Assembly: GCA_024280775.1 (NCBI GenBank)
Contig: JAJRPM010000004.1
Location: 124,001 to 188,000 of the forward strand
From: Candidatus Zixiibacteriota bacterium
GTDB lineage: Bacteria > Zixibacteria > MSB-5A5 > GN15 > JACZUZ01
Length of the DNA stretch: 64,000 bases
Direction: 5' to 3'
The notes under the pieces are model-generated. The model did not search any database, was not told where the DNA came from, and worked only from the letters and a program-made list of their open reading frames with translations. This document shows, piece after piece, positions 2,577 through 62,435 of the stretch. The stretch's first letter is position 1. Every line of letters starts with the position of its first letter. A program made the translations under genes and the position numbers.

Positions 2577-3761
2577 CTATTTCCTCCTTAAGAGCTAGGA
2601 CACAATTCGTTTCTTTTGACCACATGAAGTGAATGACCAAGCTTGTTATCATTGTCGGATAAATCCGATTAGACAACAGCCATGCGGCCTTTCGCTTCGA
2701 CTCCACCCTGTCTAGGGAAAATGGTATATCAGTGGAGTTTAGTATGGACAACGTCATTGTGCTAATACCTATCTGTCTCTTGGAGTAGAGACTCACCTGC
2801 GGAATCATTTCCCGCAAGTCCAAGTCATGTTTTTGATTAGTTTTACATTACCTGTAACCCAGGAGCCCGAGTTATAGGATTGATAAATAGTCGCTTCTGT
2901 TTGCTTATCAAATCGCGAATGATTTTGAAGTAGTCCTCCAAAATTGTAGTATCGGTTTACATACAAGCTATTCGAGGGGACGAACATAATCTCTCCATAT
3001 ACGCCATCAAATACTTCAATGGCGCGGCGGTGAAATCTTGAAGCAAAATCTGCTACGTTGTTCAAAGAATCCATCAAAATTAGTTTCATTAGAAACATAA
3101 TGCCTGTATACGAGCGTAGAAGGGTTACCAACACGTACTTGAAATTAGAAGGTGTAGTGGAATCGACGTCGAATGGCTTGTTGTAGTGATTCTTACATCA
3201 GAAAACTGATGCGAAAAGCGAGATTCAGGTGGCCTACCGTGGCTTCGGTTTACCGCTTCATCGAATCTATCGAAGGTATCGTCCCTCAAAGGCCCATGCC
3301 CTTGATAAGGTCAACAATCGGAACATCCGAAGGATTCTGTTGCGCTTTTCAAACGATTCAAAACCGGCAAATCAGCGTAACGCAATAGCAGGCAATAGCT
3401 TACTGTCGCATTTGGGCCATTATTAGGGCCGAATCGCAAAAACCATTAACAATTTTCGACTTCTTAAGTTTAGAGGTAAGTTCGCAATACTCAAGGACTT
3501 ATACAAAGACCGATTTGGCTCTCAAGCCTAAGTTTATCCAGTGAGAAAACACGCACTCAGAGGTGAATAAACAACTTACAGCGAAAAAGTCAAGAGAAAT
3601 CTTTTCCCAAACCACAATAATTGGAACTTTTTTCCGCAAACCTCAATCAATCACCAAATCCACTCGCAAAAGTCCGTATTGGGAGGCTAGAGCGGCCCAA
3701 ATCGCTGTTTGCGTCGCTGTTTGCGATAGTCAAATCGCCTCCTGACCACTATATAATAGTC
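2577..3761. other. Gene-poor intergenic stretch
   Basis: About 1.2 kb between the start of the secreted protein and the nuclease. The short ORFs here (for example 2805-3134 minus and 3173-3388 plus) have no recognisable motifs, no clear ribosome sites and no family resemblance, so I do not call them genes. A perfect 12-nt tandem duplication (TCGCTGTTTGCG twice) lies near 3702-3726. Divergent promoters for the two flanking genes are expected here but I cannot fix them. Confidence 0.5.
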
Positions 3762-5388: not shown

Positions 5389-5416
5389 AGCCAGGCGGAG
5401 GATTACCAGCCTGGCT
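5389..5416 (-). terminator. Possible Rho-independent terminator after scpB
   Basis: Inverted repeat AGCCAGGC / GCCTGGCT with a 12-nt loop. On the minus strand it is followed by a T-rich stretch (GGTTTGTTTAC). It overlaps the scpB stop codon and may partly uncouple rluB from the upstream operon. The T tract is imperfect. Confidence 0.45.
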
Positions 5417-6315
5417 TATGCCTGTTCGGTAGTGACAACTTCTTCGGTTTCGACAGCAACGTCTTCCTCGGCGCTATCCTCAATGACTTCATTAACAGCC
5501 AATTCTTCGCCGTCAGTAGCGCTAGCATCGCCATCTGTAGCGCTATCTTCAACTGCGCTGATTGTTGCCTCGTCACTATCGTTTGACTCGCTCTCAGAAT
5601 GAATAGCTTCGGCCCGCTCGGATTCCATGTTCTGGATCAACTCTTCGATTTCCGCAATTCGCGGTAGATCATCGAATGTATTCAAACCAAAGAACTTCAG
5701 AAATTCATCGGTGGCGCTATACAATAAAGAACGCCCCGCGCCCTCCGCCCGGCCTGAGATTCGAATCAGGTTTTTCTCCAGCAAATTGTGCAACACTCCA
5801 TCGGAAGCCACACCACGAATAAACTCAATCTGGTTCTTACTAACCGGCTGTTTGTAAGCAACAATCGCCATCGTCTCCAGCGCCGCTTTTGTCAGTCTGA
5901 TTTTTCTAGTCTTGGTAAAGAGTTTCTTAAGACAATCACTCCACTGCGGAAGCACATAGAATTGATACCCACCAGCGACCTGACGGATCCGAAATGACCT
6001 GTCACTAGCTTCATAAGATTCATTCAAAGCCGCAATAGCTTTCTTGATACGACCAACACCGCTCATGCCCAAAGCCTGCGAGATTTTTGCAGACTGCAAT
6101 GGCGAAGCGCTGGAAAACACCATCGCCTCTACATAGTTAGCCAGGTCGGTGTCATTGATAGAAGCATCAGAGACAACACTCTCACCTTCTGGATCACCTT
6201 GAACATCCACCTGTCCATTGGAAGTCATGCCTTCGCCAGTATTAGCGTCAGCGGATTCAGTGACAACAGAGTTAGACTCTGCAGATTCTTCAATTGTATT
6301 GTCTTTGTCGGTCAT
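5416..6315 (-). CDS. scpB: Segregation and condensation protein B
   Basis: 299 residues. The conserved core (about 60-225) has the tandem winged-helix ScpB fold: VEAMVFSSASPLQSAKISQALG, GYQFYVLPQWSDCLKKL, the hallmark LTKAALETMAIVAYKQPVSKNQIEFIRGV, and LLYSATDEFLKFFGLNTFDDLPRI. ScpB dimers bind the ScpA kleisin and with SMC form the bacterial condensin that organises and segregates the chromosome. Both termini are long, acidic Ser/Glu/Asp-rich tails (about 55 and 75 residues) that look disordered and make the protein longer than the usual ~200 residues. It lies 48 bp after scpA in the trpS-scpA-scpB run. Its partner smc is elsewhere in this window, in split form. Confidence 0.93.
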   Translation of the reverse strand: MTDKDNTIEESAESNSVVTESADANTGEGMTSNGQVDVQGDPEGESVVSDASINDTDLANYVEAMVFSSASPLQSAKISQALGMSGVGRIKKAIAALNESYEASDRSFRIRQVAGGYQFYVLPQWSDCLKKLFTKTRKIRLTKAALETMAIVAYKQPVSKNQIEFIRGVASDGVLHNLLEKNLIRISGRAEGAGRSLLYSATDEFLKFFGLNTFDDLPRIAEIEELIQNMESERAEAIHSESESNDSDEATISAVEDSATDGDASATDGEELAVNEVIEDSAEEDVAVETEEVVTTEQA

Positions 6316-6363: not shown

Positions 6364-7338
6364 TCAACTTGGCTCGTCACCTTCAGAATGATCGCTTTCC
6401 CATTCATCAACGATTATCTCACCTTCATCATAAAACGCCTCGCCACGATATACTCGCAACTCGGCAAATGAATTCACTTGTTGAAAAGTAAGCCGGCGCG
6501 CTTTGGCCATTTCAAGCAAAGCAATCAAAGTAACAATCGCCACTAGTTTGGTTTGCGCGTCAGCAAAAAGCTCCGCAAATGTTGCGCTCTCACTAACGCT
6601 TAGCAATTCTACAATCTGCGATACGCGCTCCGCCACACTTATCGGCTCCATCTCCGTCACATGCTCCAAATTCTGCTCAACACGCAACATCACTTCTTTG
6701 AAAGCTTCAATCAAATGATACACAGTGTTAGACGGAACACCCGGACCGTCACTAAAACGAATCTGCTTACGCTCCGGCACAAAAACCGTCTCCTCGCCCT
6801 CGCGCAACTCACGCAAAGACTCTGAAGCCTCTTTGAAGCGCTTGTATTCCAGCAGGGCCATCACCAGCTCTTCGCGCGGATCCATTTCATCAGGATCATT
6901 CTCATCACGCGGCAACAACATTCGCGTCTTAATGCGAATAAGCGTGGCGGCCATCAGAATAAACTCACCGGCTGATTCAAGATTCAATTCATGAATCACT
7001 TCGACATATTGCAAATACTGCCCGGTGATCTTCGCCACCGGAATATCGTGCAGGTCCAGTTCATCTTTCTTAATTAAATAGAGCAACAACTCCATCGGCC
7101 CATGAAACAAGTCAAGGTCGACCAAATACTGATTGGCCCCGCCCTCGCTCACCGCGGCTTTTACCCAAGTTGGAGTATTCTCCGGTAATTCCACCGGAGC
7201 TACCTCGACAACGGTTTGCACATCGGAAACCGGCTTACCAACTGTCGACTGCTCTTCGTCGCTTGAACTTGTATTCTTTGTTACTGCGCTATCTGGCATA
7301 TTCTGTTCTACAGGCGCATCCGGCCCCTGATTAGTCAT
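6364..7338 (-). CDS. scpA: Segregation and condensation protein A (kleisin)
   Basis: 324 residues. After a disordered acidic N-terminal tail of about 75 residues, the ScpA kleisin begins at YLVDLDLFHGPMELLLYLIKKDELDLHDIPVAKITGQYL, the family's most conserved block, followed by AGEFILMAATLIRIKTRMLLP. The C-terminal winged helix (FAELFADAQTKLVAIVTLIALLEMAKARRLTFQQ) is also present. ScpA bridges the two SMC heads and recruits ScpB. Its ATG overlaps the trpS stop by 8 nt (ATGACTAA), implying translational coupling. Confidence 0.94.
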   Translation of the reverse strand: MTNQGPDAPVEQNMPDSAVTKNTSSSDEEQSTVGKPVSDVQTVVEVAPVELPENTPTWVKAAVSEGGANQYLVDLDLFHGPMELLLYLIKKDELDLHDIPVAKITGQYLQYVEVIHELNLESAGEFILMAATLIRIKTRMLLPRDENDPDEMDPREELVMALLEYKRFKEASESLRELREGEETVFVPERKQIRFSDGPGVPSNTVYHLIEAFKEVMLRVEQNLEHVTEMEPISVAERVSQIVELLSVSESATFAELFADAQTKLVAIVTLIALLEMAKARRLTFQQVNSFAELRVYRGEAFYDEGEIIVDEWESDHSEGDEPS

Positions 7339-45408: not shown

Positions 45409-45687
45409 CAACACTTTCGATATCTCCGCTCCAAATCTTCCTCATTCACCAAACGCAAATCGCAGTGTTTCTTGCTTTCAATAAACAGATGTTTGTTGAA
45501 TTCTTTGATTGTTCTCAAGGGCGTGATTGTGTACAATAATCACTGAAGACAATCGTTGAAAACATTGGCGCAGAATCGCCGGGTTTCGGATTGTTACCGA
45601 CATAATATACCTGTGAGCCAAGCAGTGTTCTAAACGCGTTTACCGGCCCACACTACTTTCGATATATTTTATTATTGGAGCGCCCTT
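45409..45687. other. Intergenic region upstream of smc
   Basis: 279 bp; A+T-rich with an imperfect palindrome TGATTGTGTACAATAATCA (about 45525-45543). It probably holds the smc promoter, not pinned down. Confidence 0.35.
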
Positions 45688-46311
45688 TTGCGATTAAAAA
45701 AACTTGATATAGTCGGCTTCAAATCCTTCGCCGAACGCACCCACATCCACTTAGTCGATGGCGTAACCGCTATCGTAGGCCCCAACGGTTGCGGCAAAAC
45801 TAATATTCTCGATGCCCTCCGCTGGGTGATGGGCGAACAACGCCCGACTTTGTTACGTGGCGGCAAAATGGAAGATGTGATTTTCAACGGCTCACAAACC
45901 ATGAAATCACAGGGCATGGCCGAAGTTACACTAACCATAGAAAACGCCCACGGCGTCCTTCCTTCCGAATACGACGAGCTCCAACTGACACGACGCCTCT
46001 TCCGCTCCGGAGAATCCGAATACATCCTCAATAAGACTGTCTGCCGACTGCGAGATATCACCGACCTGTTCGCCGACACCGGCATGGGAGCCAATGCCTA
46101 CTCCGTCATTCAACAGCACATGATTGACGCCCTAATCTCGGATAAGACCGAAGACCGACGCATACTCTTCGAAGAAGCCGCCGGGATAACCAAATACAAA
46201 CAGCGCAAACGCGCGGCGATGCGCAAACTCGAAACCACTGAGAACGACCTTAAGCGTCTCTCGGATATTGTCTCTGAAGTAAAAACCCAGGTCAATTCCC
46301 TCAATCGGTAA
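45688..46311 (+). CDS. smc: SMC, N-terminal head fragment ending at an in-frame TAA
   Basis: 207 residues. It starts at TTG 45688, supported by GGAG 7 nt upstream and by the exact SMC N-terminus (RLKKLDIVGFKSFAERT). Walker A is GPNGCGKTNILDALRWVMGEQ (about 33-53) and the Q-loop/head region runs to TGMGANAYSVIQQHMIDALISDKTEDRRILFEEAAGITKYKQRK. The coiled coil begins, then stops at TAA 46309-46311 after VNSLNR. The next codon is ATG AAA AAA GCC GAG CGC TAC, and in intact SMCs this junction reads '...L.rQ.kKAErY', so a single CAA-to-TAA change explains the break. As written, Walker A and Walker B are on separate polypeptides. Confidence 0.9.
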   Translation: MRLKKLDIVGFKSFAERTHIHLVDGVTAIVGPNGCGKTNILDALRWVMGEQRPTLLRGGKMEDVIFNGSQTMKSQGMAEVTLTIENAHGVLPSEYDELQLTRRLFRSGESEYILNKTVCRLRDITDLFADTGMGANAYSVIQQHMIDALISDKTEDRRILFEEAAGITKYKQRKRAAMRKLETTENDLKRLSDIVSEVKTQVNSLNR

Positions 46312-49300
46312 ATGAAAAAAGCCGAGCGCTACCAGGACACCCACATCGAACTAAAAAAACTCGAACTGGGCCTGGCGAGAATCACACTGGATGCGCTAAA
46401 AGAAGAGGACTCAAGCAAACGCCAGTCGCTCTACTCTGAACGCGACAAAGTCAGTGAATGTGACACCAAGCTTTCGGTTTCAAACGCCGAGCTCGAAGAG
46501 CGACGTCTACTCCAGAATGAGCTGGAGACAGAGTTAACCCAAGTCTCCGCGGCAACTCAGGCCAAAACCGAGGAAGGTCACGCGCTCGATATCAAAATCT
46601 CCTCACTAAAAGAGCGCGCTCTATCCCTTGCCCAAACTCGCGAACGAAACATCGTAGAAATACAAGCCTGTGACACACGCCTGGTACAGCTAGGTGAAGA
46701 AGAGAACACAGTAAGGGAAGAATTACAAACCTGCGAAGCGGGCCTTGGGACCCTACTGGCGGAGATTACAACAGCTGAGTTGGCCTCACAATCCGCCGAC
46801 GAAGAACTGCTAACTGCGCGTCGCGGAGCTAATGACACCACCGAAAAACTCATGGCCCTCGAAGGCCGAATCTCTTCCGGCAAAAGTGACACTCAGAATC
46901 TCTCCGAACAAGAAAACGAACTCAAGCGCCGTGTCGAAGACTGCCAGCGTCAGGTTTCCGCTCTCACCAATGAAATCTCAACCACCAGAGCCGAAAAAGA
47001 CAAATCATCAGCGCTAGCAAAACAGGCCGAGAACAACGTAGCGGATATTTCAAACCGCCTGAACGAAACCGCGCAGGAAATTGAAGCAATAAATGCTCGC
47101 ATCGAAACCGATAGCGATAACATTACAGATTTATCAGCGGCTCTGGAGGCTACTAGCGCCAGGTTGCGCCTGCTCGAAGAAATGATCGCCCGCCATGAAG
47201 GTTTCGGCGTTGGTGTCGCCGCGGCTCTCGATAATCGCGAGCAATGGTCCGACCTGCTCGGAACAGTGGCGGACTTAATTGTCCCGCGCACTGGTCACGC
47301 GCGCGCGATTGAAGCGGCTCTTGACGATGTAGCAGGCTATTTGGTAACCAAGGAACGTAACGCCGCTGAGCAAGTCATAGACTTCCTCGCACAAGAACAA
47401 AAGGGTAAAGCGGCAGTCTTTACTCTCGACGGATTCTCTATCACAGAGAAATCTACCGAGCAAACATCAACCAACGAAGACACCGAGACCAGCCAGCGTC
47501 GTCCCTTAGAAGAATCCGGTTTCGTAGGCTGGGCCGACAGACTTGTCGATCCGCATCCTGACGCCAAAGCTCTGGCGCATTCCCTGCTATGTGACACAGC
47601 AGTCTTTGACGCTACTATCGAAGCGCTTCCCCAATCAGAGTTGCAAGCGCTCCTAAGTAGACTGCCTGCCTCTGCTCAGGTTGTCACTACTAACGGAAAA
47701 CTCTACCGTGGCGTAACAGTCCTCGCCGGCGGCTCAGCAGATCAGGCCCCAAGATTCGGTCGTAGAGAGCGCGCCGAGGAAATGAAAAGCGAGCTAACTC
47801 GTCTCGAAACCAAGCTAAGCGCCGCTCGTGACAAGAAAAATGAAAATATGGCGGAAGTCGCACGCCTCCGCGCACGCATCTCACAACTTGACCTTGAGCT
47901 CGAATCAGCCCGCGAAGAGAAAAACTCAGCGGAAAGAAATCACGGCGAACTGGCTATTACTGTCACTAATCAGGAAAAAAACCAACAGCGCTTAGAGCAA
48001 GAACAAAAAGCCGCCAATGACAAACTCGACTTACTGAAACACCGTCAATACACCCTGACTCTCGATGTAGACCAGCTCTCCGGCGAGAAATCAAGACTCC
48101 TGGCGCTAGGCGATGAGCGTAACCAGGCCCTGGCGGCCCTCGAAGCGAATGCACAATCCGCCGCTGATGCCTCAAATAAACTCCAGGTCCGCCTAGTTGA
48201 GGACAAGTCAGTAGTCAACCAGCTCACCACAAGAATCAGTCACCTGCAAGAGCTGCGCAATGAAGTAGTCCAAACCAAAGACAGCAAAATCGCAGAAAAC
48301 GAAACTTCACTACGTGAAATCGAAACCTCCGCAACAACTGTAATTGAACTCGAAGAAAACCTTAGAGCAGTATTTGATCAGCGCACCGAGCTATCACGCT
48401 CCGAAGCCGAGATTCGCCAACGTCGTGACGAAGTAGTAAACCTGCTACGCGAGCGCGAGGAAGGTCTCAAAGAAGTTCGTAGCGCACGTGAGCGCGCCAT
48501 GCAGGAAGCTCATCAACTGGAGCTACGTCGCTCACAGATCGAGCTGGAAATCAAAGCCCTTTGCGAAAGAATTTCAGAGGAATACTCAATCGACCTCAAC
48601 GAGTATCAGGACGACAGCGAGGACGCTCCCAAAAAATCCGATGAAGTAGAGAAACTCTCAGAAGCCCGCGAAACAGTTAGCAACCTGAAACAAAAACTCA
48701 AATCATTTGGCGCAGTAAACCTGCTGGCAATCGAAGAATTCTCCTCAGCTCAGGAACGTTACGCCTATCTCAGCGCCCAATACGAAGACCTCACCAGCGC
48801 CCGCGCAACCCTGCAGTCGACCATCAACAAAATCAACAAAACCGCCAAAGAGAAATTCCTGGAGACTTTCTCAGTCGCGCGCAAAAACTACAAAGAAGTC
48901 TTCACTGAATTATTCCAGGGTGGCGAATGCGACCTGAAACTAGTAGATGAAAACGATCCGCTGGAGTCAGCCATCGAAATCGTAGCCAAACCCAAAGGCA
49001 AGAAGCTAGTGACAATTACCCAAATGTCCGGTGGTGAACGCGCGCTAACTGCTATTTCATTACTCTTTGCGCTCTATTTGGTGAAACCTTCTCCGTTCTG
49101 TATTCTCGATGAAATCGACGCCCCGCTCGATGATGCAAACTGTCATCGCTCCCTGCGCATGATTCGTCGTTTCTCAGGACGCACCCAGTTCATCATCATC
49201 ACCCATAACAAAATCAGCATGGAAGCCGCTGATAATCTCTATGGCGTGACGATGGAGTCACCGGGAATCTCCAAACTGGTGTCAGTTCGCTTCGGTGATG

Positions 49301-49578
49301 TCGCCGATGACGGACGAATCACTTTGCGAAATGACGCCATCCACGACGAAGATGACAGCGAAGAAGTCGCTCCGCGCACTGTCATAAGCAAGAAAGCAAT
49401 TGTGGAACAGGAAGCCGCTACTTCTGAAGCGACCGGGTTGGAGGACTTGCAGATTCCAACTGTCGTAGCGGAGCGAATGGTCTCCACCACGATTCCAGCC
49501 GATGATATTACCAAAACAGCGCCCAGCGCAAATGGTCTCAACGTCGACACCAAAGATGACACCAACGAGAACGCATAG
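46312..49578 (+). CDS. smc: SMC, coiled coil, hinge and C-terminal head (continuation after the stop)
   Basis: 1,088 residues in the same frame as the upstream fragment. Long coiled coil; hinge near 300-480 (EMIARHEGFGVGVAAAL, LGTVADLIVPRTGHARAIEAALDDVAGYLV) with a Thr/Glu-rich insert; second coiled coil; then the head with the signature MSGGERALTAISLLFALYLVKPSPFCILDEIDAPLDDAN (C-loop and Walker B) and FIIITHNKISMEAAD (His switch). A ~100-residue acidic tail follows. With the N-terminal piece it sums to ~1,296 residues, slightly above the usual 1,170-1,200. ATG directly after TAA could allow reinitiation. ftsY follows 53 bp later, a common gene order. Confidence 0.92.
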   Translation: MKKAERYQDTHIELKKLELGLARITLDALKEEDSSKRQSLYSERDKVSECDTKLSVSNAELEERRLLQNELETELTQVSAATQAKTEEGHALDIKISSLKERALSLAQTRERNIVEIQACDTRLVQLGEEENTVREELQTCEAGLGTLLAEITTAELASQSADEELLTARRGANDTTEKLMALEGRISSGKSDTQNLSEQENELKRRVEDCQRQVSALTNEISTTRAEKDKSSALAKQAENNVADISNRLNETAQEIEAINARIETDSDNITDLSAALEATSARLRLLEEMIARHEGFGVGVAAALDNREQWSDLLGTVADLIVPRTGHARAIEAALDDVAGYLVTKERNAAEQVIDFLAQEQKGKAAVFTLDGFSITEKSTEQTSTNEDTETSQRRPLEESGFVGWADRLVDPHPDAKALAHSLLCDTAVFDATIEALPQSELQALLSRLPASAQVVTTNGKLYRGVTVLAGGSADQAPRFGRRERAEEMKSELTRLETKLSAARDKKNENMAEVARLRARISQLDLELESAREEKNSAERNHGELAITVTNQEKNQQRLEQEQKAANDKLDLLKHRQYTLTLDVDQLSGEKSRLLALGDERNQALAALEANAQSAADASNKLQVRLVEDKSVVNQLTTRISHLQELRNEVVQTKDSKIAENETSLREIETSATTVIELEENLRAVFDQRTELSRSEAEIRQRRDEVVNLLREREEGLKEVRSARERAMQEAHQLELRRSQIELEIKALCERISEEYSIDLNEYQDDSEDAPKKSDEVEKLSEARETVSNLKQKLKSFGAVNLLAIEEFSSAQERYAYLSAQYEDLTSARATLQSTINKINKTAKEKFLETFSVARKNYKEVFTELFQGGECDLKLVDENDPLESAIEIVAKPKGKKLVTITQMSGGERALTAISLLFALYLVKPSPFCILDEIDAPLDDANCHRSLRMIRRFSGRTQFIIITHNKISMEAADNLYGVTMESPGISKLVSVRFGDVADDGRITLRNDAIHDEDDSEEVAPRTVISKKAIVEQEAATSEATGLEDLQIPTVVAERMVSTTIPADDITKTAPSANGLNVDTKDDTNENA

Positions 49579-49631: not shown

Positions 49632-50546
49632 ATGTTCTCGCGATTCAAAAAGCTCAAAGACAGCCTCCTCCAAACCAAGAAATCGATTTTCGGTAAACTG
49701 GCCCCACTGGTCGGCGCCAGAAAACTCGATGAACAACTACTCGAAGAAATCGAAGAGACTTTGCTGGGCGCAGATATCGGTGTCGACGCCACCATGCAAA
49801 CCATCGACGCAGTCCGTAAGAAAGCCCAACGTGAAAATCTAACTCAGGGCGATCAAGTAATGACTCTCCTAAGAGACGAACTACGCGAAATCCTAACCAA
49901 GTCCAAAGCCACCTCAATCTGGGATAGCCCTTCCCGCCCGATAATCCTGCTAATTGTCGGTGTCAATGGCGCAGGCAAAACCACTACCATCGGAAAACTC
50001 GCTCGGCTCTACTCTGCTCAAGGCCACAGCGTCATGATAGCCGCCTGTGACACCTTCCGCGCCGCCGCCGTCGAACAACTCGAAACCTGGGCCACACGTT
50101 CAGGAGTAGACTTCGTCAAAGCCGGTGACGGCGCTGATCCCGCTTCTGTCGCATACGACGCCGCTGTCTCAGCCACTTCCAAGGGAACAGAACTACTACT
50201 AGTGGACACCGCCGGAAGACTCCACACCAAAACCCACCTGATGCAGGAATTAGGCAAAATCCGAAGGGTAGTGGAAAAAGCCAACCCCCAAGCCACAGTG
50301 CTGAGCCTGCTGGTCATCGACGGTACAACTGGCCAAAACGCCATCTCACAAGTCAAAGTATTCACTGAAACAGTAGGCTGTGACGGTCTAATCGTCACCA
50401 AGCTGGACAGCGCCGCCAAAGGCGGAGTTATAGTAGCTATCACTAAGGAGCTGTCAGCTCCTGTTCGTTTCGTGGGAGTCGGCGAAGGCATTGATGACAT
50501 TCAGGAATTCGACCCCGTCGCCTATGCCGATGCCCTGCTAGAATAA
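49632..50546 (+). CDS. ftsY: Signal recognition particle receptor FtsY
   Basis: 304 residues. NG domain of the SRP GTPase family: N-domain helices (LDEQLLEEIEETLLGADIGVDATMQTIDAVR), P-loop GVNGAGKTTTIGKLARLY, DTFRAAAVEQLETWA, DTAGRLHTKTHLMQEL, TKLDSAAKGG and GVGEGIDDIQEFDPVAYADALL. It docks SRP-ribosome complexes at the membrane. The acidic A domain of E. coli FtsY is absent, as in most other phyla. Confidence 0.96.
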   Translation: MFSRFKKLKDSLLQTKKSIFGKLAPLVGARKLDEQLLEEIEETLLGADIGVDATMQTIDAVRKKAQRENLTQGDQVMTLLRDELREILTKSKATSIWDSPSRPIILLIVGVNGAGKTTTIGKLARLYSAQGHSVMIAACDTFRAAAVEQLETWATRSGVDFVKAGDGADPASVAYDAAVSATSKGTELLLVDTAGRLHTKTHLMQELGKIRRVVEKANPQATVLSLLVIDGTTGQNAISQVKVFTETVGCDGLIVTKLDSAAKGGVIVAITKELSAPVRFVGVGEGIDDIQEFDPVAYADALLE

Positions 50547-51558: not shown

Positions 51559-54500
51559 CTACTTCAATAGCAACATCTTCTTAGTAGCCGCGAAGGCTCC
51601 AGCTTTCGCTGAGTAGAGATAGACACCTGACGCCACCGAGGCGCCATGCTCATTCTTGCCGTCCCAGTTCACCTGAATAACTCCCGGATCATCTTCGCCG
51701 GTTAGCTTACGCACTGTCTGGCCAAGCATATTGTAAACCGTGATACTCCACGCCGAACGCTGAGGAAGCGAAAGCTCAATCTTCGTCGACGGATTAAACG
51801 GATTCGGATAGTTCTGCGAAAGGGCAAATGTCGTCGGAATAACTTTCTCTGCAATACGACCATTGATAACCTGCCAACCATTGGCATCCGAGAATTCAGC
51901 GCTAACCAGCTTCAATTCACCTTGATAACTTGCGGGAACATTCACTGAAAGCAACGAAGCCTTGCCGCTAGGAATCACCTCACCTTGCGCGGCATCGGGG
52001 CTTTCATAAACCAAAGCCCGAATCATGCCATCCTCAATTCGATAGGCCAAATCCATATTACCAGCGCCGGAGCCAAGCGTGATACTCTCAGGAGGCGCTC
52101 CACTGTAACTGAAGGTCAGGAACGCCGCGCCCAGCGCGATATCCGCATCAGAAGTCACCGCATAGCCGGTTTCGTTTTCAGTGAACAACACTGCTGGCTG
52201 ACGTGTATTGAACGCCAAACGCGGAATTGGCTCAGCGTCACCAATCAGCACCCGAATCAAGTGCACTAAATCAGCAACCGTAAGTGTAGCGCCATCAGCG
52301 TTGATATCCGATGCCGCAGTTTGACCGGCGATGCTGAAAATAAACGCATCCAGCCCAATCACAAAATAATTCGTATAGACCACCGCATCGGCTACCTCAT
52401 ACGCCAAACCATTGAGGTTCAAATCACCGCGAGCGTCAATCTTGTCAGGGTCAATAATACAAACACCACCATTAACAAAATCCACACAACGCGACGGAGT
52501 GTACTTGCCGTCAAGCGGACATGACGCATCCGGTGAACCAACTCCAATCAAACGAGAGCTCTCCGGGAATGCCACATCATCGAATTCATCCCAGACTAAC
52601 TTGTTCTCGGCATTGAATATCCGCGCATCAATAAACAAGTTGTCACCACCTGGATCAGAGAATCCGTTGTCACCGCAGTCAAGCCAGTAGAATGACACAG
52701 GCACAAATTGGTTACCCAGAGATTGGTCATTAGAAATGCGGAACTTCAACCTGGCCAGGACACCCTGAGGCTGGAAAGCCGAGTCAGGCGGATGATTGGC
52801 CCCGTCATTGATATCAGCAATCGCAACTAATCGCAGGAGACCATTCGGACATCCACCGCCGCAATTTGTGAACGGTCCCTGTCTGAAAGTGAAATACTCC
52901 CAATCGGTAACCGCTCCGCCAATCCCAGCGGACAAGAAAGCCAAAGCGCTTTGGTCATAGGAAATCAGCATATCATAGCCACCAATTGGTTCATTGGTCT
53001 CAGCAACAATATCCACATTAACTTCCTGGCCGACTGGCGTGCACTCCGGCCCTACAATCGAGACTGTCAAACAAACCCCGCAATCACTTGTCGGGAACAG
53101 CGTCACAAAGAATGACTCCGTGCGGGTATGACAGCCATCAGTGACTTGTATACAGAACTCATAGACACTATCAGCGCTGGCAGGCAAGAAACATATCTCT
53201 GCGCTATCTCCAGGAAATACTTGAAGTTCACCGGGACCACATATTTTGGTAATAGTAACTGCATCACCTTCTGCATCAGTGGCCAGTATTCCATTTAAGC
53301 ATATCGTAGTAGTGTCATCAGCGCAACGAGCCAGCATCAACCCTTGGGGCAATGTCAATTCAGGAACGCTATTGTTGCGAATATTCACCTCAAAGTGACA
53401 TGAGTCACTACCGCATGAAGTGCTCGCCAGAACATCAAAGACATACAACCCAGCAGTATCAACCGCAAAGGTCACCACTCCATTGTTGTAGGTCCCGAAC
53501 GGCTTAACCTCAACCACCGAACCATTTGTCATAGCGCCTACATTAACACTAAACGAATCAACCTGCCCAACACAAAGCAAAGTATCAATCGGAGCCGGAC
53601 AGGACAATTCAGGTGTCGAAGTAATCTTTACATCCACTGTCACCTGGCAACTTGCATTACCGCAAGGAGCAAAGGCATTCATATCTATCACATAGATCCC
53701 ACTCGTATCCGCGAAGAAACAAAGCTCTCTCGTCGTAGCATTGTAACTTCCGAAACTGACATTGAGCGAATCCACACCTGGAGTAACAGGTATCAATAAA
53801 CATACAGTATCAGGAGCGCAAAGCGAGGCCTGCTGAATTCCCTCAGGACAAACAATACTAGCGGCAATTCCAGTTGTCACATTTACTGCCACCGTATCAG
53901 TATCAAAAAGCCCGCAGGAATCAGTAGCGGTTACAGCAATTCGGAACTGCCCGATAGTCGCAGGCAGGAAGCACACAACCCCGCGAACCGGATCATAGGC
54001 GCCCTGATCAGCAACTACCGAAACAATATTGCCTTCATCATCAGAAAGTTGCACCGGAATACAAATCGAATCAATGGTACATTGGAACACATCTATATCC
54101 TTACCCAATGAAACAACAGGCGCATCATCAAGATCAGTAGTAACTGTAAAGGTACAGGAAGTCTCCGCGCAACTCAGACTGGAAGTAAGAGTGAGCGTCA
54201 TTGTCGTATCACCTGTTATCGGGATACAAACAGTCGAATTCGCAAAGTCTATATATGCCGGAGCAGTAACCGACGGGAACGCCTCTGGGGGTGTCACAGT
54301 AAATGGCAAGCACACCGTATCAGGCGCACAGGCAAACAATGACTGATCTGTAGGACAAGTAATAGTTGGAGTAGTTAGTAGTGTCGCCTTCACAACCAAC
54401 TCACAAGTATCTGCTCCACAATTATTAGCGGCAATCAACTGCACAGTGTATATCCCGCTAGTATCCAGCGCCAAACAAATCGAGTCATTGGCAATCACTG

Positions 54501-57500
54501 ACCCAGCTGAAGCGCTAAGAACAGCGCTCTGAGGCCCAACTTCAACAGCGAAACACTGTGTCACAGGCTCGCAGAACTCAACACTAACTGTGTCCTGACA
54601 AACAATCACCGGCGAAACATCAGCAGTCACCGTAACCGTGAAACTATCAACTGCGCTAATTCCGCAAGAATCTGTAACCCGAGTCCACAGTTGATACACA
54701 CCGGCAGTATCCGGGGTAAAGCAGATTGAACTGCTAAGAGTGTCAAAGCTCGCAAATGACGGTGTCTCGTATGCGACAATACCGCCACGTACATCATTTG
54801 CATCAACAGTCCGACAAATCTCCACTGTCCCGATATCGCAAATGAACACTGAGGTATCAGGAAGAGCCACGATAGTCGGAGGAGCGTTGAGTTCAACGTT
54901 AACTTCAAACACACAAGTATCAGAGCCACATTCTGAAGTAGCGACTGTAGTGATCGTATACAGTCCCGCTGTGTCCGCGTTGAATGACACCATACCGGCG
55001 TCATAACTTCCAACCGGACTAACAGTGACTATAGCGCCACCGGTAATTACTCCGACAGGACGACGCACCAATCCTGGGGCGCATAGGAATTCACTTGAAG
55101 GAGGCGGACAGGTAAATGCCGGCTGTCCGCCGATTACCACATTGAATACCACATTACAGCTATCAGTCCCGCAACCGCTACCGGCAGAAAGCGCCACTTC
55201 ATATACACCAGAAGTATCTGCGAAGAAACACAATTGGCCGTTGGCGTATGTTCCAAATGATGCGCTAACCACAGAACTCGCCGGTGACACATCAATTATC
55301 TGGCAGACAGTATCCGCGCCGCAAAGCATTACATCAATAGTATCCGGAGGACAGGCAATAGTAGCCTGAGGAACAATCTGCGGAGTAATCCAGGTGGTAT
55401 CAGCTCCAACAGCGCCACAGCTATCAGTAGCCACAATAATCACTGCGATAGAACCGGTATCAATCGGGGTCAAACACACCGTTCCGGTGATCGGATCATA
55501 AGAGCCATAAGGCAAAACCCGAACATCAAGTAAATCATATTCCGCATCTGAAATCCCAACCGGGATACAAACCTCCGTCAATCCGCAACCACTAACTGTA
55601 GTGTCGACACCAGCAACAACCACTGGAGCGCTATTGATTCGAACATCAACTACGATAGTTTTCTGTACAAACATTCCGCACGAATCAATAACCGTCACAG
55701 TAACCGGTGTCCTGCCGCTAACTCCCGCCGTGAAACAAATCGAACCAGTAGTCTCATCATAACGCGCCCCACCGGAGGTGGTAATAGCCATCACATTACC
55801 ATCAGTGTCAATTATATCAATGGGCACACAAACCTCGCCCGGAGCGCAAAGCAAAGCAATTGAATCCACCGGATCAGAAATCACCGGCGGCGAATTAACT
55901 ATCACAGAAACCACAACTGTATCAGCGGCAACCATACCGCAGGAATCGACGGCAGTAGTTATAATAGAATACTCACCTCCGGCATTCGAGGGAGTAAAGC
56001 ACACAGTTCCCGCTAGTTCATCATAAACACCGTAGTTCACACCCACCGAGAACAGGTTTCCATCATCATCGCGAGCGTCAACCGGCAAACATATCTCTTC
56101 AGCGCTACAGAGAAATACCGAAGTGTCAACCGGAGCAACAACTACCGGCGCACGATTGACCACCGCATTGACATAGATGGAATCGACATCACTTGCGCCG
56201 CAATTATCCACGCCGGTAACTGTAAAGAGATATAGTCCGGTAGTGTCAATACTAACACAAACTTTTCCAGTAATCGGATTGTAAGAGCCAAAAGGCGCAA
56301 CCTGCACACCAGCAAGGTTGTAGTCTGCATCGGAGATACCAACCGAAAAACAAACATCCTGAGGTTCGCAAAGCAATGCCGCGATATCAGGAGCCGTAAT
56401 CACCAACGGATTAGAGTTCATAGTCACATTGGCGATAAACGAACAAGTGTCCACAAAACAGCCATTGGTGACAATCATCTCAATCTCTTTCACCACTGAA
56501 CAATTGGTGAAGAAATAGATTTCATCATTTATCGCATCATAACCCACCGAAGGCTGGGTGATAACCACTTCAGCTCCAGCAGGAACATTCAAACCGCCGA
56601 AACGCAAGGTATCGGGCTGGCAGATAAATATCGAAGTGTCAACAGGGCAATTCAAAGTAAAGTCAGCGCCTATATTGACTATGACAACTATAGTATCGCT
56701 GGCGACTGCCCCGCAGGAATCAGCAACATTGACAATCAAAGTAAATGCGCCATCATTTTGTGGAGTAAAACAAACCTCACGAGCTTGGGAATTCCATGTT
56801 CCCCCCACAGCGGTTACAGAGGCAATATTGCCGTCAACGTCCCCATAAGTCACAGGCACACACACTTCAGTAGTTACACACTGCAAATCCAGCGTATCAC
56901 TAGCAAACGATGCTGTCGGAGGCGTATTGCCGATTACGGTAACGACTGTCGTATCTGCGGAAACCAATCCGCAACTATCTGTAGCGGTCAACACAATGTT
57001 GTATGTCCCAGAAGTATCGGGGTCAAAACAGATCTCACCATTATTGTAGAAGATGCTTGTTCCACCGCTAGCGACGACAGAAACGATATTGCTGTCAATA
57101 TCAGAAACTCCAAACGGCAAACAAACCGTCGTACCACCACAACCTAGAATAGTAGTGTCAGCGGCGGCGACTACCACCGGCGCGCTGTTGAGATCAATAA
57201 TAGCGATTGTCGTATCTGAGGTTAGGGCCCCACAGGAGTCTAGAGCATTTATCACTATGATATATGTACCGGAGGTATCAGGTATGAAACAGATTTCATT
57301 ACCTCTATCGATAGCCCCTATTACAGTCACCGACTGCAAATTATCATCCTGTACCGAATAGCCAAAACAAAGTTCAACTGGAGCGCAAAGTGAAGTGTCG
57401 CAAAGTTTTTTACTCATTACCAACGGCGCTTCATTTAGGGTGATATACAAATTCACAGTATCGCTAACAATCAATCCACAGGAATCAGTCGCTGTGGCTA

Positions 57501-60500
57501 TGATAGTCTGCTGACCCGATGCGCTAACAAACGCGCATATCTGCCCGTTGCTGTACACACCACCGACAACATCAATCGTGGCGAGATTATTATCTATATC
57601 GAAGATGCTAGCCGAGAAACAAATCGAATCCGGCGCACATAACGTCAACGACTGATCAGCCCTCAAGTCCACTACCGGAACGCTATTCTTCAGGACAGTG
57701 ACGATAGTAGTGTCATAAGCTGTTAACCCGCAAGAATCAGTGACCGAAAGCGCAATCAAATACTCTCCTGCGCTATTTGCCCCGAAGCACACCGTGTCAT
57801 TAGTGATATAACCGATATTTGTAGTTATCGAAGCAATATTGCTATCGATGTCACTTGCGCCGAAGTGGAAAAACAATTTCTCATTATCGCAGATGAACAC
57901 AGTCGTGTCATTCGGCCCGCTCAATGTCGGAGCGCTATTGAAGACCACTCTCACACGGAACGAGCAACTATCAGCCCCGCAGGCTGTCTGCGCCACCACA
58001 CCAATATCATACACACCCGAAGTGTCAGCGACAAAACTCACAAATCCATTCTGATACTGACCGATTGGAGATACGACAACCTCCGCAGAACCAGCCATCA
58101 AACCCACCGGCGTAACAATCACCGCTCCCGAATCACACACAAATACAGAAGTATCCACCGGACAAGTCAAAGTCGCGGCTTCGCCCACCGTCACAGCAAA
58201 GACAATTGTGCAACTATCAACGCCGCAACTAGTCCCGGCGCTAACAGCAATTTCATAGGTTCCACTGGTATCAGCGGTAAAGCTCAACACACCGTTGCTG
58301 ATTGTCCCGAACGACGATGTCAAATCCGCATTCGACGGACTAAACGTCAGGGCATAATTAACCTGATTCGGTCCGCACACTGTCATTGCCACCGGAACGA
58401 CTGGACAACTCAAAGCCGGAATAACGCCGGATGTAACTGTAACAGATATCGTATCAACACTGGTAGCGCCACAATCATCAGTGGCTACTACAATTTCTTC
58501 AAAGACTCCCTCACGCGCCGGCGTAAAGCAAATTGATTTCGTATTTGGATTGTAATATCCAATCGAGGGAACGACACTCACGATGTTTGCATTGCCTGCT
58601 ATCGACGGAATCGAAACCGGAAGACAAATCTCAGCTAATGAACATTGGAATATTGTAGTGTCAGCGCCAAGGGTAATCTGAGGAGCTTGATTGAAATCAA
58701 TAGTGATAATTGCCGTATCGCTGGCAACCGCGCCACAATCGTCGATCACTGACCCGATTACGGTATATACTCCAGCAGTATCTGGAGTGAAACAAATCAA
58801 GCGCCCCAACAAATCATACTGGCCGATATTCGGAGTAATCACCGGAACAGGACCATCAATATCACTTGAGACAAAGGAAACACAAATTTGTTGCGGCCCG
58901 CAAAGTTGCAAACTCAAATCAGCCCCGGCAACAACCTCGGGAGCCTGATTGACAACTGCATTGATAACCAAAGTATCGCTGGAACTAGCGCCACAATCAT
59001 CTGTCACAGTCACTACCGTCACATAGGTTCCGGTAGTGTCAACACTCTGACATACAACCCCTTGAATCTTATCATAGACACCGCCATTACTGACGGTTAC
59101 TGTAGTATTCCCATAATCCAAATCCGAAATACCTACCGGCAGGCAAATAGTAGCCGGTGCGCAAATCGTAGTATCCAACACCGGAGCCGCTATCACCAGA
59201 GGCGCTGAATTCATCGTAACATTCACATTGAAGGTACACGTGTCAGTTTGGCAGCCATTGCTGACAATGGCGGTGAGCTTCTTATTAACACTGCAATTAG
59301 TGAAGAAACAAATCGTCCCGGTGGAATCGTTATAGTAGGCCGTCTTGGGAAATATCTCCACTGTGACATCTGGCGGAAAAACTCCAAACGGAACACATAC
59401 ATCACCTGTGTCACAAACAAATATATTTGTATCAACTGGGCAGTTCACCGGAGCAAACACGGATTCGCTGACTGTTACAACAATAGTGTCGCTGGCGCTG
59501 AGTCCGCAAGAATCAGTGGCGGTGACAATAGCGGTGAAATCTCCAGGCCCGCTGGCGGCAAAACACAAATCGCCAGTCATCGGATCAATGGTTCCAAGTG
59601 TAGTAGTAATCGAAAGAATGTCGTTATCCACATCAGTGACAGTCAGGGGAACGCATATATCCTGCAAACCACAACCAGCAACAGAATAGTCCCCCGGAAG
59701 TGTAACTACCGGAGCATTCCCAGGTAACACTAGAACGCGAATAGTATCAGTTGGAATCTCATTGGCGTACATCTGCGGATTACTACGAATACAACTATCG
59801 GTAATCTGAAACACAAATTCAAATACTGTCGGCGCGCTCAAAGTCCCCGGCGCAAAACAGGCAACTCCGGAGGTATCAGTAGTCATAGAGAATGAGCCCC
59901 CGCCGCCAATCTGAGTTATTTCAACTCTGTCGCCAAAATTAGGATCAGAACCAGCGACGATAAAGCACAGTGTGTCAACACCGCAGGCGCTAAGCGTATC
60001 GGTGTAACTAAATAACTGCGGCGGATCATTCAATGCAACCAACAGACAAATCTGTTGCTCATCAAAACTACAATCATCACTAGCTCTTACAGTAAAGCAA
60101 TACACTCCGCTAGTATCAGCGGTAAAGGTAATCAAACCACTCTGGTCAATTGTTCCGGCTCCGCCAGTCAATGACCAGACAATAGCGTCAAAGTCACCAT
60201 CAAAGGCCGTAACTTGATGCGAAATCGTCCCGCCACCTAGACAAGACTGGTAGCTACGCTCATTAACCATAATCACCGGAGCGGTGTTTATCAGCACATC
60301 GACATTGGTAATGCAAGTGTCAGCTTTGCCGTCAGGCCCCAAACAAACAAGTTCAAAAGTGTACAAACCAGAAGTATCAGCGAAAAAGCAAACGCTATCG
60401 CCACTGAAGGTACCGTAGTTAACAGTGTTGGTGTAACCTGGTTTCGTTGTCGCGACAAATGAAGTCAAACAAACTTCCTGTGGCTCGCAAATGACTATTG

Positions 60501-61422
60501 CAGTGTCAGTCGGACATGAAATCTGAACTGGTGGCGAGCAGGCCAACGAATCAATTGTGAACGGATGACAGTCACTCGATGCTCCCAAAACCAAACACGA
60601 GTCATTCGCGGTAATCTCAGCGCAAGCGCTTGTATTCCGCTCCAAGCACGGGCCAAAAGGCTCTTCGCCCAGGAAGCGGGCTTGAATCGTGTAGCCCCCG
60701 TCAGCGGTAGGAAGCGCCAGTCGTACGCAGGCGGCTCCTCCCACACTTGTAACAACCGTGTCCTCGCTACTGGCAGAAGAACCCGAACCGCAATCTCCAG
60801 AATTGATAGAAACAATAACACTGCGTCCGGCCAAACCAATAGAGCCGCCATTAGGACAATACACAGCGAGATTGACACAAATATCAATAGAATCCCCCAC
60901 AACCGTGGAACAAATCGAAGTGTCAAGAGCAGGCGAAGTGATATTGAGAAAAGTATTGGCGTTGATGAAACTTGTTTGTGCGCTAAGTCCCGAAACCGAG
61001 CCTGAGGCGCTGACTATCAACTGGTCGCCTATAGCATTGTCATAAGGCAAAGCCCAGGAAGTCAGGAACTTGCCATTGCTATCGGCAAACACCGTCCAGG
61101 GGAAATGTCCAACACCTGCGGTCGGGTCTAATGCGTCGCGCAAAACCTGAACAGTAACGCTCTCACCCGGCTGAAAATTCACACCATTGATTTCAACTGT
61201 TGAACCGGGCATATAGTCCATTCTATCGGTGGAAACAGCCGCCAACGATGCAACAACTGTAGTAGCGCTGGTGTCAGTAATCTGGTTGGTGGTCGATCCG
61301 GACTTTTGCGCAAAGACCGCGCCACCAAAGCCCAACGAAAAAGTGACCGACAATATCCCCAACAACAAAAGCCGCATAGCCAGGGATTGCCTAAGGCTCC
61401 CATCAAGATGCTTTCTTGACAT
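51559..61422 (-). CDS. Giant secreted Cys-repeat protein with cohesin-like, dockerin-like and C-terminal sorting domains
   Basis: About 3,287 residues from ATG 61422 (MSRKHLDGS), which has GGAG 5 nt upstream; the track start at 61509 is less likely. A signal peptide ends near GGAVFAQ. After an N-terminal beta region come about 28 repeats of ~80-90 residues with the pattern 'C.P.evC.p....D.....sv....G.yd...g.vCF..DTSG.Y...v.atDSCG...sDT..v.V'. Two variants alternate: one ending TDSCGxxxxDT, the other opening CPVDTS and ending CGxDSC. Near the C-terminus lie a cohesin-like domain (VNVDIVAETNEPIGGYDMLISYDQSALAF), a dockerin-like pair (RGDLNLNGLAYEVADAV and SDINADGATLTVADLV) and a FlgD-like sorting tail (FALSQNYPNPFNPSTKIEL). 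It is probably a surface adhesin or scaffold. Confidence 0.9.
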   Translation of the reverse strand: MSRKHLDGSLRQSLAMRLLLLGILSVTFSLGFGGAVFAQKSGSTTNQITDTSATTVVASLAAVSTDRMDYMPGSTVEINGVNFQPGESVTVQVLRDALDPTAGVGHFPWTVFADSNGKFLTSWALPYDNAIGDQLIVSASGSVSGLSAQTSFINANTFLNITSPALDTSICSTVVGDSIDICVNLAVYCPNGGSIGLAGRSVIVSINSGDCGSGSSASSEDTVVTSVGGAACVRLALPTADGGYTIQARFLGEEPFGPCLERNTSACAEITANDSCLVLGASSDCHPFTIDSLACSPPVQISCPTDTAIVICEPQEVCLTSFVATTKPGYTNTVNYGTFSGDSVCFFADTSGLYTFELVCLGPDGKADTCITNVDVLINTAPVIMVNERSYQSCLGGGTISHQVTAFDGDFDAIVWSLTGGAGTIDQSGLITFTADTSGVYCFTVRASDDCSFDEQQICLLVALNDPPQLFSYTDTLSACGVDTLCFIVAGSDPNFGDRVEITQIGGGGSFSMTTDTSGVACFAPGTLSAPTVFEFVFQITDSCIRSNPQMYANEIPTDTIRVLVLPGNAPVVTLPGDYSVAGCGLQDICVPLTVTDVDNDILSITTTLGTIDPMTGDLCFAASGPGDFTAIVTATDSCGLSASDTIVVTVSESVFAPVNCPVDTNIFVCDTGDVCVPFGVFPPDVTVEIFPKTAYYNDSTGTICFFTNCSVNKKLTAIVSNGCQTDTCTFNVNVTMNSAPLVIAAPVLDTTICAPATICLPVGISDLDYGNTTVTVSNGGVYDKIQGVVCQSVDTTGTYVTVVTVTDDCGASSSDTLVINAVVNQAPEVVAGADLSLQLCGPQQICVSFVSSDIDGPVPVITPNIGQYDLLGRLICFTPDTAGVYTVIGSVIDDCGAVASDTAIITIDFNQAPQITLGADTTIFQCSLAEICLPVSIPSIAGNANIVSVVPSIGYYNPNTKSICFTPAREGVFEEIVVATDDCGATSVDTISVTVTSGVIPALSCPVVPVAMTVCGPNQVNYALTFSPSNADLTSSFGTISNGVLSFTADTSGTYEIAVSAGTSCGVDSCTIVFAVTVGEAATLTCPVDTSVFVCDSGAVIVTPVGLMAGSAEVVVSPIGQYQNGFVSFVADTSGVYDIGVVAQTACGADSCSFRVRVVFNSAPTLSGPNDTTVFICDNEKLFFHFGASDIDSNIASITTNIGYITNDTVCFGANSAGEYLIALSVTDSCGLTAYDTTIVTVLKNSVPVVDLRADQSLTLCAPDSICFSASIFDIDNNLATIDVVGGVYSNGQICAFVSASGQQTIIATATDSCGLIVSDTVNLYITLNEAPLVMSKKLCDTSLCAPVELCFGYSVQDDNLQSVTVIGAIDRGNEICFIPDTSGTYIIVINALDSCGALTSDTTIAIIDLNSAPVVVAAADTTILGCGGTTVCLPFGVSDIDSNIVSVVASGGTSIFYNNGEICFDPDTSGTYNIVLTATDSCGLVSADTTVVTVIGNTPPTASFASDTLDLQCVTTEVCVPVTYGDVDGNIASVTAVGGTWNSQAREVCFTPQNDGAFTLIVNVADSCGAVASDTIVVIVNIGADFTLNCPVDTSIFICQPDTLRFGGLNVPAGAEVVITQPSVGYDAINDEIYFFTNCSVVKEIEMIVTNGCFVDTCSFIANVTMNSNPLVITAPDIAALLCEPQDVCFSVGISDADYNLAGVQVAPFGSYNPITGKVCVSIDTTGLYLFTVTGVDNCGASDVDSIYVNAVVNRAPVVVAPVDTSVFLCSAEEICLPVDARDDDGNLFSVGVNYGVYDELAGTVCFTPSNAGGEYSIITTAVDSCGMVAADTVVVSVIVNSPPVISDPVDSIALLCAPGEVCVPIDIIDTDGNVMAITTSGGARYDETTGSICFTAGVSGRTPVTVTVIDSCGMFVQKTIVVDVRINSAPVVVAGVDTTVSGCGLTEVCIPVGISDAEYDLLDVRVLPYGSYDPITGTVCLTPIDTGSIAVIIVATDSCGAVGADTTWITPQIVPQATIACPPDTIDVMLCGADTVCQIIDVSPASSVVSASFGTYANGQLCFFADTSGVYEVALSAGSGCGTDSCNVVFNVVIGGQPAFTCPPPSSEFLCAPGLVRRPVGVITGGAIVTVSPVGSYDAGMVSFNADTAGLYTITTVATSECGSDTCVFEVNVELNAPPTIVALPDTSVFICDIGTVEICRTVDANDVRGGIVAYETPSFASFDTLSSSICFTPDTAGVYQLWTRVTDSCGISAVDSFTVTVTADVSPVIVCQDTVSVEFCEPVTQCFAVEVGPQSAVLSASAGSVIANDSICLALDTSGIYTVQLIAANNCGADTCELVVKATLLTTPTITCPTDQSLFACAPDTVCLPFTVTPPEAFPSVTAPAYIDFANSTVCIPITGDTTMTLTLTSSLSCAETSCTFTVTTDLDDAPVVSLGKDIDVFQCTIDSICIPVQLSDDEGNIVSVVADQGAYDPVRGVVCFLPATIGQFRIAVTATDSCGLFDTDTVAVNVTTGIAASIVCPEGIQQASLCAPDTVCLLIPVTPGVDSLNVSFGSYNATTRELCFFADTSGIYVIDMNAFAPCGNASCQVTVDVKITSTPELSCPAPIDTLLCVGQVDSFSVNVGAMTNGSVVEVKPFGTYNNGVVTFAVDTAGLYVFDVLASTSCGSDSCHFEVNIRNNSVPELTLPQGLMLARCADDTTTICLNGILATDAEGDAVTITKICGPGELQVFPGDSAEICFLPASADSVYEFCIQVTDGCHTRTESFFVTLFPTSDCGVCLTVSIVGPECTPVGQEVNVDIVAETNEPIGGYDMLISYDQSALAFLSAGIGGAVTDWEYFTFRQGPFTNCGGGCPNGLLRLVAIADINDGANHPPDSAFQPQGVLARLKFRISNDQSLGNQFVPVSFYWLDCGDNGFSDPGGDNLFIDARIFNAENKLVWDEFDDVAFPESSRLIGVGSPDASCPLDGKYTPSRCVDFVNGGVCIIDPDKIDARGDLNLNGLAYEVADAVVYTNYFVIGLDAFIFSIAGQTAASDINADGATLTVADLVHLIRVLIGDAEPIPRLAFNTRQPAVLFTENETGYAVTSDADIALGAAFLTFSYSGAPPESITLGSGAGNMDLAYRIEDGMIRALVYESPDAAQGEVIPSGKASLLSVNVPASYQGELKLVSAEFSDANGWQVINGRIAEKVIPTTFALSQNYPNPFNPSTKIELSLPQRSAWSITVYNMLGQTVRKLTGEDDPGVIQVNWDGKNEHGASVASGVYLYSAKAGAFAATKKMLLLK

Positions 61423-62435
61423 TGTCACTCCAGACTTGATATGACTTCTTGAATTTAGATAGTCCACTAAAGACTTCATCCACAGCGCTCCCTGATGTGT
61501 ATTCCGCAAAATTCGTTCAAACTAAAACCCAAGCTCTTCAACTCAGAAACTGCGACAATTGCAAAACAACGGTAATCAAAGAGGCCGGTGTAGCTAATAT
61601 ATCGAGGGGACATTTCCTGATTTCCAGACCAATCCGCAATTCCGCACCAGCTATTTGAAGCTAACGCATTTTTTGCGGTTGTATTCTGGTATATATGATG
61701 ACTAACAGCTGTCTTCGTAAGGGCGAAGTAATTGACGTAAGAGTCCATCTGGACAGTGTTTAATATACCATATTTCATGCTCTCGTCAATGCCAATCTCT
61801 CTGCGCCAAACAGGAATAGAATCCATTGGAATATCCGTTGAAGTAATAATTGAAGTATCCACTGAATTATCCATTGAGACCGTATCCCTTTCGCCAACTA
61901 ATGCGCAATAGCATGCATAATTGGCATCTGGATTCAGGATTATATTCGCTGGTTTTCGTTCGTCTCTCAAAAGGCAATCTCTTGTCTTACAGCACATTAC
62001 AAACCGGGTATCATCCCCCGGGGCATTTCAACTTACCCCGAACAATATGAACTACTGCCAATATCCGCAAAATCTGTGCGAACATTCCCCTCCAATGCCT
62101 CGTAATTGAAAACGAATGACTACTAGTCTTTCGCAAAGCGCTAGTCAAAGAGAATCAGAAAAGTCAATTGGGCCAACTATTTGCCCACAATTGAATCGAC
62201 ATTACAGGACAATCGAATTGTTGTCATCAAGTATCAACAACCGCCATTGTCCATAATCTGCCAGAAAGAAGCCCAACAAAATCCAGATTCCTGCGTTAAT
62301 AAAACAAGATGGGCCTCAGTTCGCCCCAATTTACTTATATTGTCTTTAGTATCAAGTTCCTTCAATCATGGAACTAGTCAATCAATCGGATATGAATAAA
62401 CAACTGGAATCCGCAAAAGGAACCAAGGAGAAACA
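61423..62435. other. Divergent intergenic region
   Basis: About 1 kb between the divergent starts of the giant protein and the anchor-B protein. It must hold both promoters, which I could not locate. The 173-codon ORF at 61476-61997 is the only long one and is listed separately with low confidence. Confidence 0.45.
61476..61997 (-). CDS. Doubtful ORF upstream of the giant protein gene
   Basis: 173 residues with no recognised motif, signal peptide or ribosome site. Composition is not obviously random (a Ser/Thr/Asp-rich piece, DTVSMDNSVDTSIITSTD), and it runs in the same direction as the giant gene, so a remnant or fast-evolving gene is possible. I would not annotate it without homologues. 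Confidence 0.15.
   Translation of the reverse strand: MCCKTRDCLLRDERKPANIILNPDANYACYCALVGERDTVSMDNSVDTSIITSTDIPMDSIPVWRREIGIDESMKYGILNTVQMDSYVNYFALTKTAVSHHIYQNTTAKNALASNSWCGIADWSGNQEMSPRYISYTGLFDYRCFAIVAVSELKSLGFSLNEFCGIHIRERCG

Follow-up and report, generated by a model that had tools for sequence, protein, structure and literature searches.

The smc gene of a Zixibacteria MAG raises the question of whether the SMC protein of this organism is made as one chain or as two. Within the 64,000-nucleotide stretch of DNA that was analysed (the window), the frame beginning with TTG at 45688 and closing with TAG at 49578 is open but for one internal TAA, followed directly by an ATG (Table 1); the coding frame is thus interrupted at 46309 in the assembled DNA. 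The initial annotation had described this arrangement correctly and offered as explanations a two-piece SMC made by termination and reinitiation, stop readthrough, a recent null mutation, or a base-call error. The MAG, assembled in 17 contigs, is 97.5% complete with 0 contamination. A genome of the same genus (G001) served for comparison; the genomes looked at included no other assembly of this species.

Table 1. Features of the smc locus, its partner genes, and other in-frame stops of the assembly. Positions without a contig are those of the window; G000 denotes the MAG itself.
Feature	Position	Strand	Remarks
scpB	5416..6315	-	Intact, single copy; PF04079, E 4e-50
scpA	6364..7338	-	Intact, single copy; PF02616, E 1.2e-34
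GGAG, Shine-Dalgarno-like	45677..45680	+	7 nt upstream of the smc TTG start; read directly
smc N-terminal ORF	45688..46311	+	207 aa; Walker A half-head and first coiled-coil turns; ends in TAA
TAA in smc	46309..46311	+	In frame; replaces invariant Gln codon
smc C-terminal ORF	46312..49578	+	1088 aa, ATG start; coiled coils, hinge, Walker B/C-motif half-head
ftsY	49632..50546	+	Intact, downstream of smc; TIGR00064; gene order same in G001
secY, TAA	G000:C1:250726		Single copy; CAG in G001; Gln in 18/18 relatives
murF, TAG	G000:C16:29948		Single copy; GAG in G001
accB, TAA	G000:C7:104852		Single copy; GAG in G001
ALDH, one stop	G000:C5:128084		TGG in G001; Trp in orthologues of four relatives
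GAF-PAS histidine kinase, two stops	G000:C1:309732 and 310644		AAG and GAA in G001
Spermidine-synthase-like protein, one stop	G000:C1:317366		CAG in G001
Omp85-like protein, one stop	G000:C7:336994		GAA in G001

The two pieces were found to make up a complete bacterial SMC. The N-terminal ORF matches positions 1-207 of TIGR02168 (SMC_prok_B, length 1181) with an E-value of 7.5e-111 and aligns without gaps to residues 1-205 of the Bacillus subtilis protein, while the C-terminal ORF matches positions 210-1180 (E 1.3e-175). As the matches together span the whole profile, nothing is missing at the junction and the break amounts to a single codon; the flanking residues join as in a normal SMC, as had been claimed. 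The translation carries GPNGCGKT, SGGER and DEIDAPLDD, and the joined pieces have the full-length profile match, Walker A, hinge, C-motif and Walker B of the bacterial Smc-ScpAB systems, from which this gene departs by one internal TAA in its assembled DNA. The start codon is another single-base difference from G001, where it is ATG; TTG at 45688-45690 is the sole start-like codon near the Shine-Dalgarno sequence.

The assembly holds a single smc gene and no second SMC was found in it, so that a further copy or a MukB-like replacement was ruled out. Both ScpA and ScpB, required for a Smc-ScpAB condensin, are present and intact, encoded approximately 39 kb from smc with no adjacency to it. The initial annotation was right on their intactness, confirmed by profile matches, but its use of this as an argument against loss of the condensin did not hold: intact partners are to be expected whether the stop is an error or a new mutation or the protein is split, and hence do not discriminate.

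Alignment of smc from relatives, which had been proposed as a check, placed a sense Gln codon at the site of the stop in 29 of 29 sequences (CAA in 5, CAG in 24). G001 reads CAA-ATG in an intact frame, and the change of a conserved Gln codon from CAA to TAA, as suggested at the outset, accounts for the break; the comparison indicates that a single C-to-T change struck an invariant codon. Given that CAR-ATG is also found in many other relatives, the ATG at 46312 is an old internal Met codon rather than a new start, and no Shine-Dalgarno sequence precedes it. Between the MAG and G001, the dN of the N-terminal piece is low (0.026), and constraint on the rest of the gene is in line with that on ScpA, ScpB, and RodZ. 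Both halves look as conserved as the neighbouring genes, with no decay or relaxed selection detected by dN/dS in this pairwise comparison, and relaxation following a split was consequently dismissed. The search for the same split in sister genomes, likewise proposed, found it in 0 of 130 other genomes of the phylum with an smc match. One genome (G092) seemingly divided at the same place has Ns at the join, an assembly gap, and the smc pieces of three others (G112, G079, and G063) are partial or run to contig ends. A naturally split gene would be expected to be shared by at least two lineages or strains and to have its own start signal for the second piece; here, neither was found.

The remainder of the assembly was surveyed for comparable breaks by applying a hexamer model to 1.664 Mb, followed by Pfam and homologue checks. 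At least nine in-frame TAA or TAG codons were identified in eight otherwise intact genes, smc included, and this is a minimum since the scan sees mid-gene stops only, in about half of the genome. Loss of SecY, AccB, or MurF is lethal in bacteria, and hence the stops in their genes cannot all be real null alleles; sequence error or readthrough becomes the common explanation to beat. None of these three genes has such a stop in any relative checked. Their stops are equivalent to the smc stop and to isolated stops in the smc genes of two other genomes (G016 and G080): each is a single TAA or TAG in an intact conserved gene and is absent from relatives. What distinguishes the smc stop of this MAG from the other isolated stops is that ATG is the next codon. 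In a reciprocal survey of G001-homologous genes, restricted to coding-like frames, five nonsense codons were counted among 85,103 aligned codons of the MAG and two among 87,169 of G001, a difference that is not significant; one or two frameshift candidates were seen in the MAG and one in G001. The gene with two stops, at G000:C1:308316-311504 on the minus strand, encodes a GAF-PAS-histidine kinase-receiver protein that is broken by a TAG and a TAA and is represented by an intact 1096-aa frame in G001; it looks like a pseudogene.

The proximity of the TAA to an ATG proved to be a modest coincidence of 1-4%, as few of the possible nonsense sites of smc adjoin an ATG (6 of 479 single-base nonsense paths, or 3 of about 80 when transitions are considered). 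Among roughly 100 near-full smc genes in the phylum, three (about 3%) have a single in-frame stop, each at a different place: the present TAA, a TAA in G016, and a TAG in the Ser codon of LSGGE in G080. At the measured background, a gene of 1296 codons would be expected to carry a nonsense codon in approximately 2-3% of such MAGs, and the smc stop is therefore at background level. The smc gene of another Zixibacteria MAG (G038:C47:500-5500) lies in three frames separated by two frameshifts, which are more likely to be assembly errors.

Of the explanations put forward initially, a base-call error is thus favoured, on the invariance of the Gln codon and on the stops in secY, accB, and murF. The TAA is probably a one-base error of the consensus in a normal smc gene, the wrong letter being that at 46309. 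The break would then be an isolated CAA-to-TAA nonsense substitution within the assembled sequence, the organism would encode an ordinary SMC of 1296 residues partnered by ScpA and ScpB, and the ATG would be a normal internal Met codon lying next to the stop by chance. Similar breaks scattered among indispensable single-copy genes are the mark of such errors, and they are present here; with equivalent stops in genes that the cell cannot lose, the smc stop is most likely a one-letter error and not a natural split. Counting against an error are the quality of the assembly, with few frameshifts and few contigs, such that it is not obviously an error-rich long-read draft, and a density of nonsense codons not significantly above that of G001. 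Next in likelihood is a real, recent, and private nonsense mutation in the sequenced strain or population that would abolish or strongly reduce SMC and be tolerated for now under slow growth. The change is a single-base transition in a gene that is otherwise undamaged and under unrelaxed constraint, as for a very young allele. Null mutants of smc in B. subtilis are viable when growth is slow, making the loss survivable, and the kinase that resembles a genuine pseudogene suggests that real nonsense mutations may exist in this genome. Such a mutation is nevertheless an unlikely source of the smc stop, given an invariant Gln across the order and like stops in three genes that cannot be null.

A working two-piece SMC would require termination at the TAA, restart at the adjoining ATG, and an ATPase assembled from the 207-aa and 1088-aa chains through contacts of head and coiled coil. 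It is possible in principle, given that the SMC heads of B. subtilis (5H66/5H67; chain A of 199 aa and chain B of 188 aa) and Pyrococcus furiosus (1XEW, 3KTA), as well as the head of Rad50 (1II8), were solved as two chains, with separate N- and C-terminal half-heads that assemble. The break lies eight residues past the engineered end of the N-chain of 5H66/5H67, and hence within 10 residues of it; these chains, however, come from shortened expression constructs that lack the full arm, and do not reflect a natural arrangement of the gene. Bacterial ribosomes commonly restart where a stop and a start lie close together (PMC5972666), a natural TAA-ATG junction between genes follows fumarase in this genome (G000:C11:105053), and both halves of smc are under normal constraint. 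Against this, the ATG is ancestral and was not selected as a start, a Shine-Dalgarno sequence is wanting, and the split recurs nowhere else in the phylum. By the gapless alignment, moreover, the stop corresponds to residue 208 of the B. subtilis protein, inside helix alphaN1 (188-253), which makes up the uninterrupted strand of the SMC joint (PMC5526789). The arms of SMC tolerate insertions poorly save close to the hinge and at some places in the joint (PMC5526789), and while a nick at this position is not absurd, it would cut a continuous helix. Equal stops also occur where restart cannot help, as in secY, in which the next in-frame start lies 36 codons past the stop. The interpretation as a two-piece SMC is therefore unsupported and highly improbable; it is made unnecessary rather than refuted. 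Readthrough would instead entail that UAA and UAG are inefficient terminators in the lineage, such that in-frame copies are tolerated and full-length SMC is made. Three of the stops are in essential genes, and all nine, together with the two in-frame stops of G001, are TAA or TAG with none TGA, though for the nine this absence is not significant (P about 0.07-0.10 under random substitution). Among 43 tRNAs and a tRNA-Sec identified in the nearly complete assembly, none has the UUA or CUA anticodon of a suppressor, and TAA and TAG terminate 26 of the 35 conserved genes of the window. The replaced residues are mixed (three Gln, four Glu, one Lys, and one Trp), a heterogeneity as given by random substitution. 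With no cognate suppressor tRNA and no one consistent residue, a single recoding rule does not fit; recoding as Gln, hinted at by smc, secY, and the spermidine-synthase-like gene, was ruled out by the conserved Trp of ALDH and the Glu of accB. Readthrough of the smc stop is accordingly very doubtful. It is extremely improbable that it operates genus-wide, with the stops in smc, secY, accB, murF, and the other genes all being real, full-length proteins being made, and UGA being kept for termination and selenocysteine.

A split smc is, most likely, not a real feature of this organism. A conserved gene that is conspicuously broken should be judged by how often similar breaks occur across its assembly, first and foremost in indispensable genes. 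Were reads to confirm all the stops, the question would no longer be SMC but how the lineage lives with stops in secY, accB, and murF, an important matter.

Some TGA interruptions were initially counted among the breaks, but they fit selenoproteins instead. The genome has a selenocysteine system, with tRNA-Sec at G000:C10:808-900, and in-frame TGA codons were noted at Cys-like sites of a DUF3179 protein, a thioredoxin-like protein (UxxC), a DUF1573 protein (UGC), and a protein with an AIRS domain, apparently SelD (loci G000:C1:210952, C7:95865, C1:220628, and C15:182527). Selenoproteins with DUF3179 and DUF1573 are already known (PMC9312934). A SelB-like start follows a TAA at L088:12934.

An Rfam search of the window returned no match. 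Upstream of a minus-strand gene starting near 2580, the region 2572-3197 (minus strand) is conserved at the DNA level with G001, in which it contains a 173-aa open frame; the copy in the window is broken by several small indels and is either a broken gene or a conserved leader. Elsewhere in the genome, a DpnI-like restriction endonuclease (PF06044 and PF17726) is encoded at G000:C15:228266-229222 and is followed by a short in-frame ORF. Finally, the minus strand of the window encodes, at 51559-61509, a protein of 3316 aa with a type IX secretion C-terminal sorting domain (TIGR04183), which is full-length in G001.
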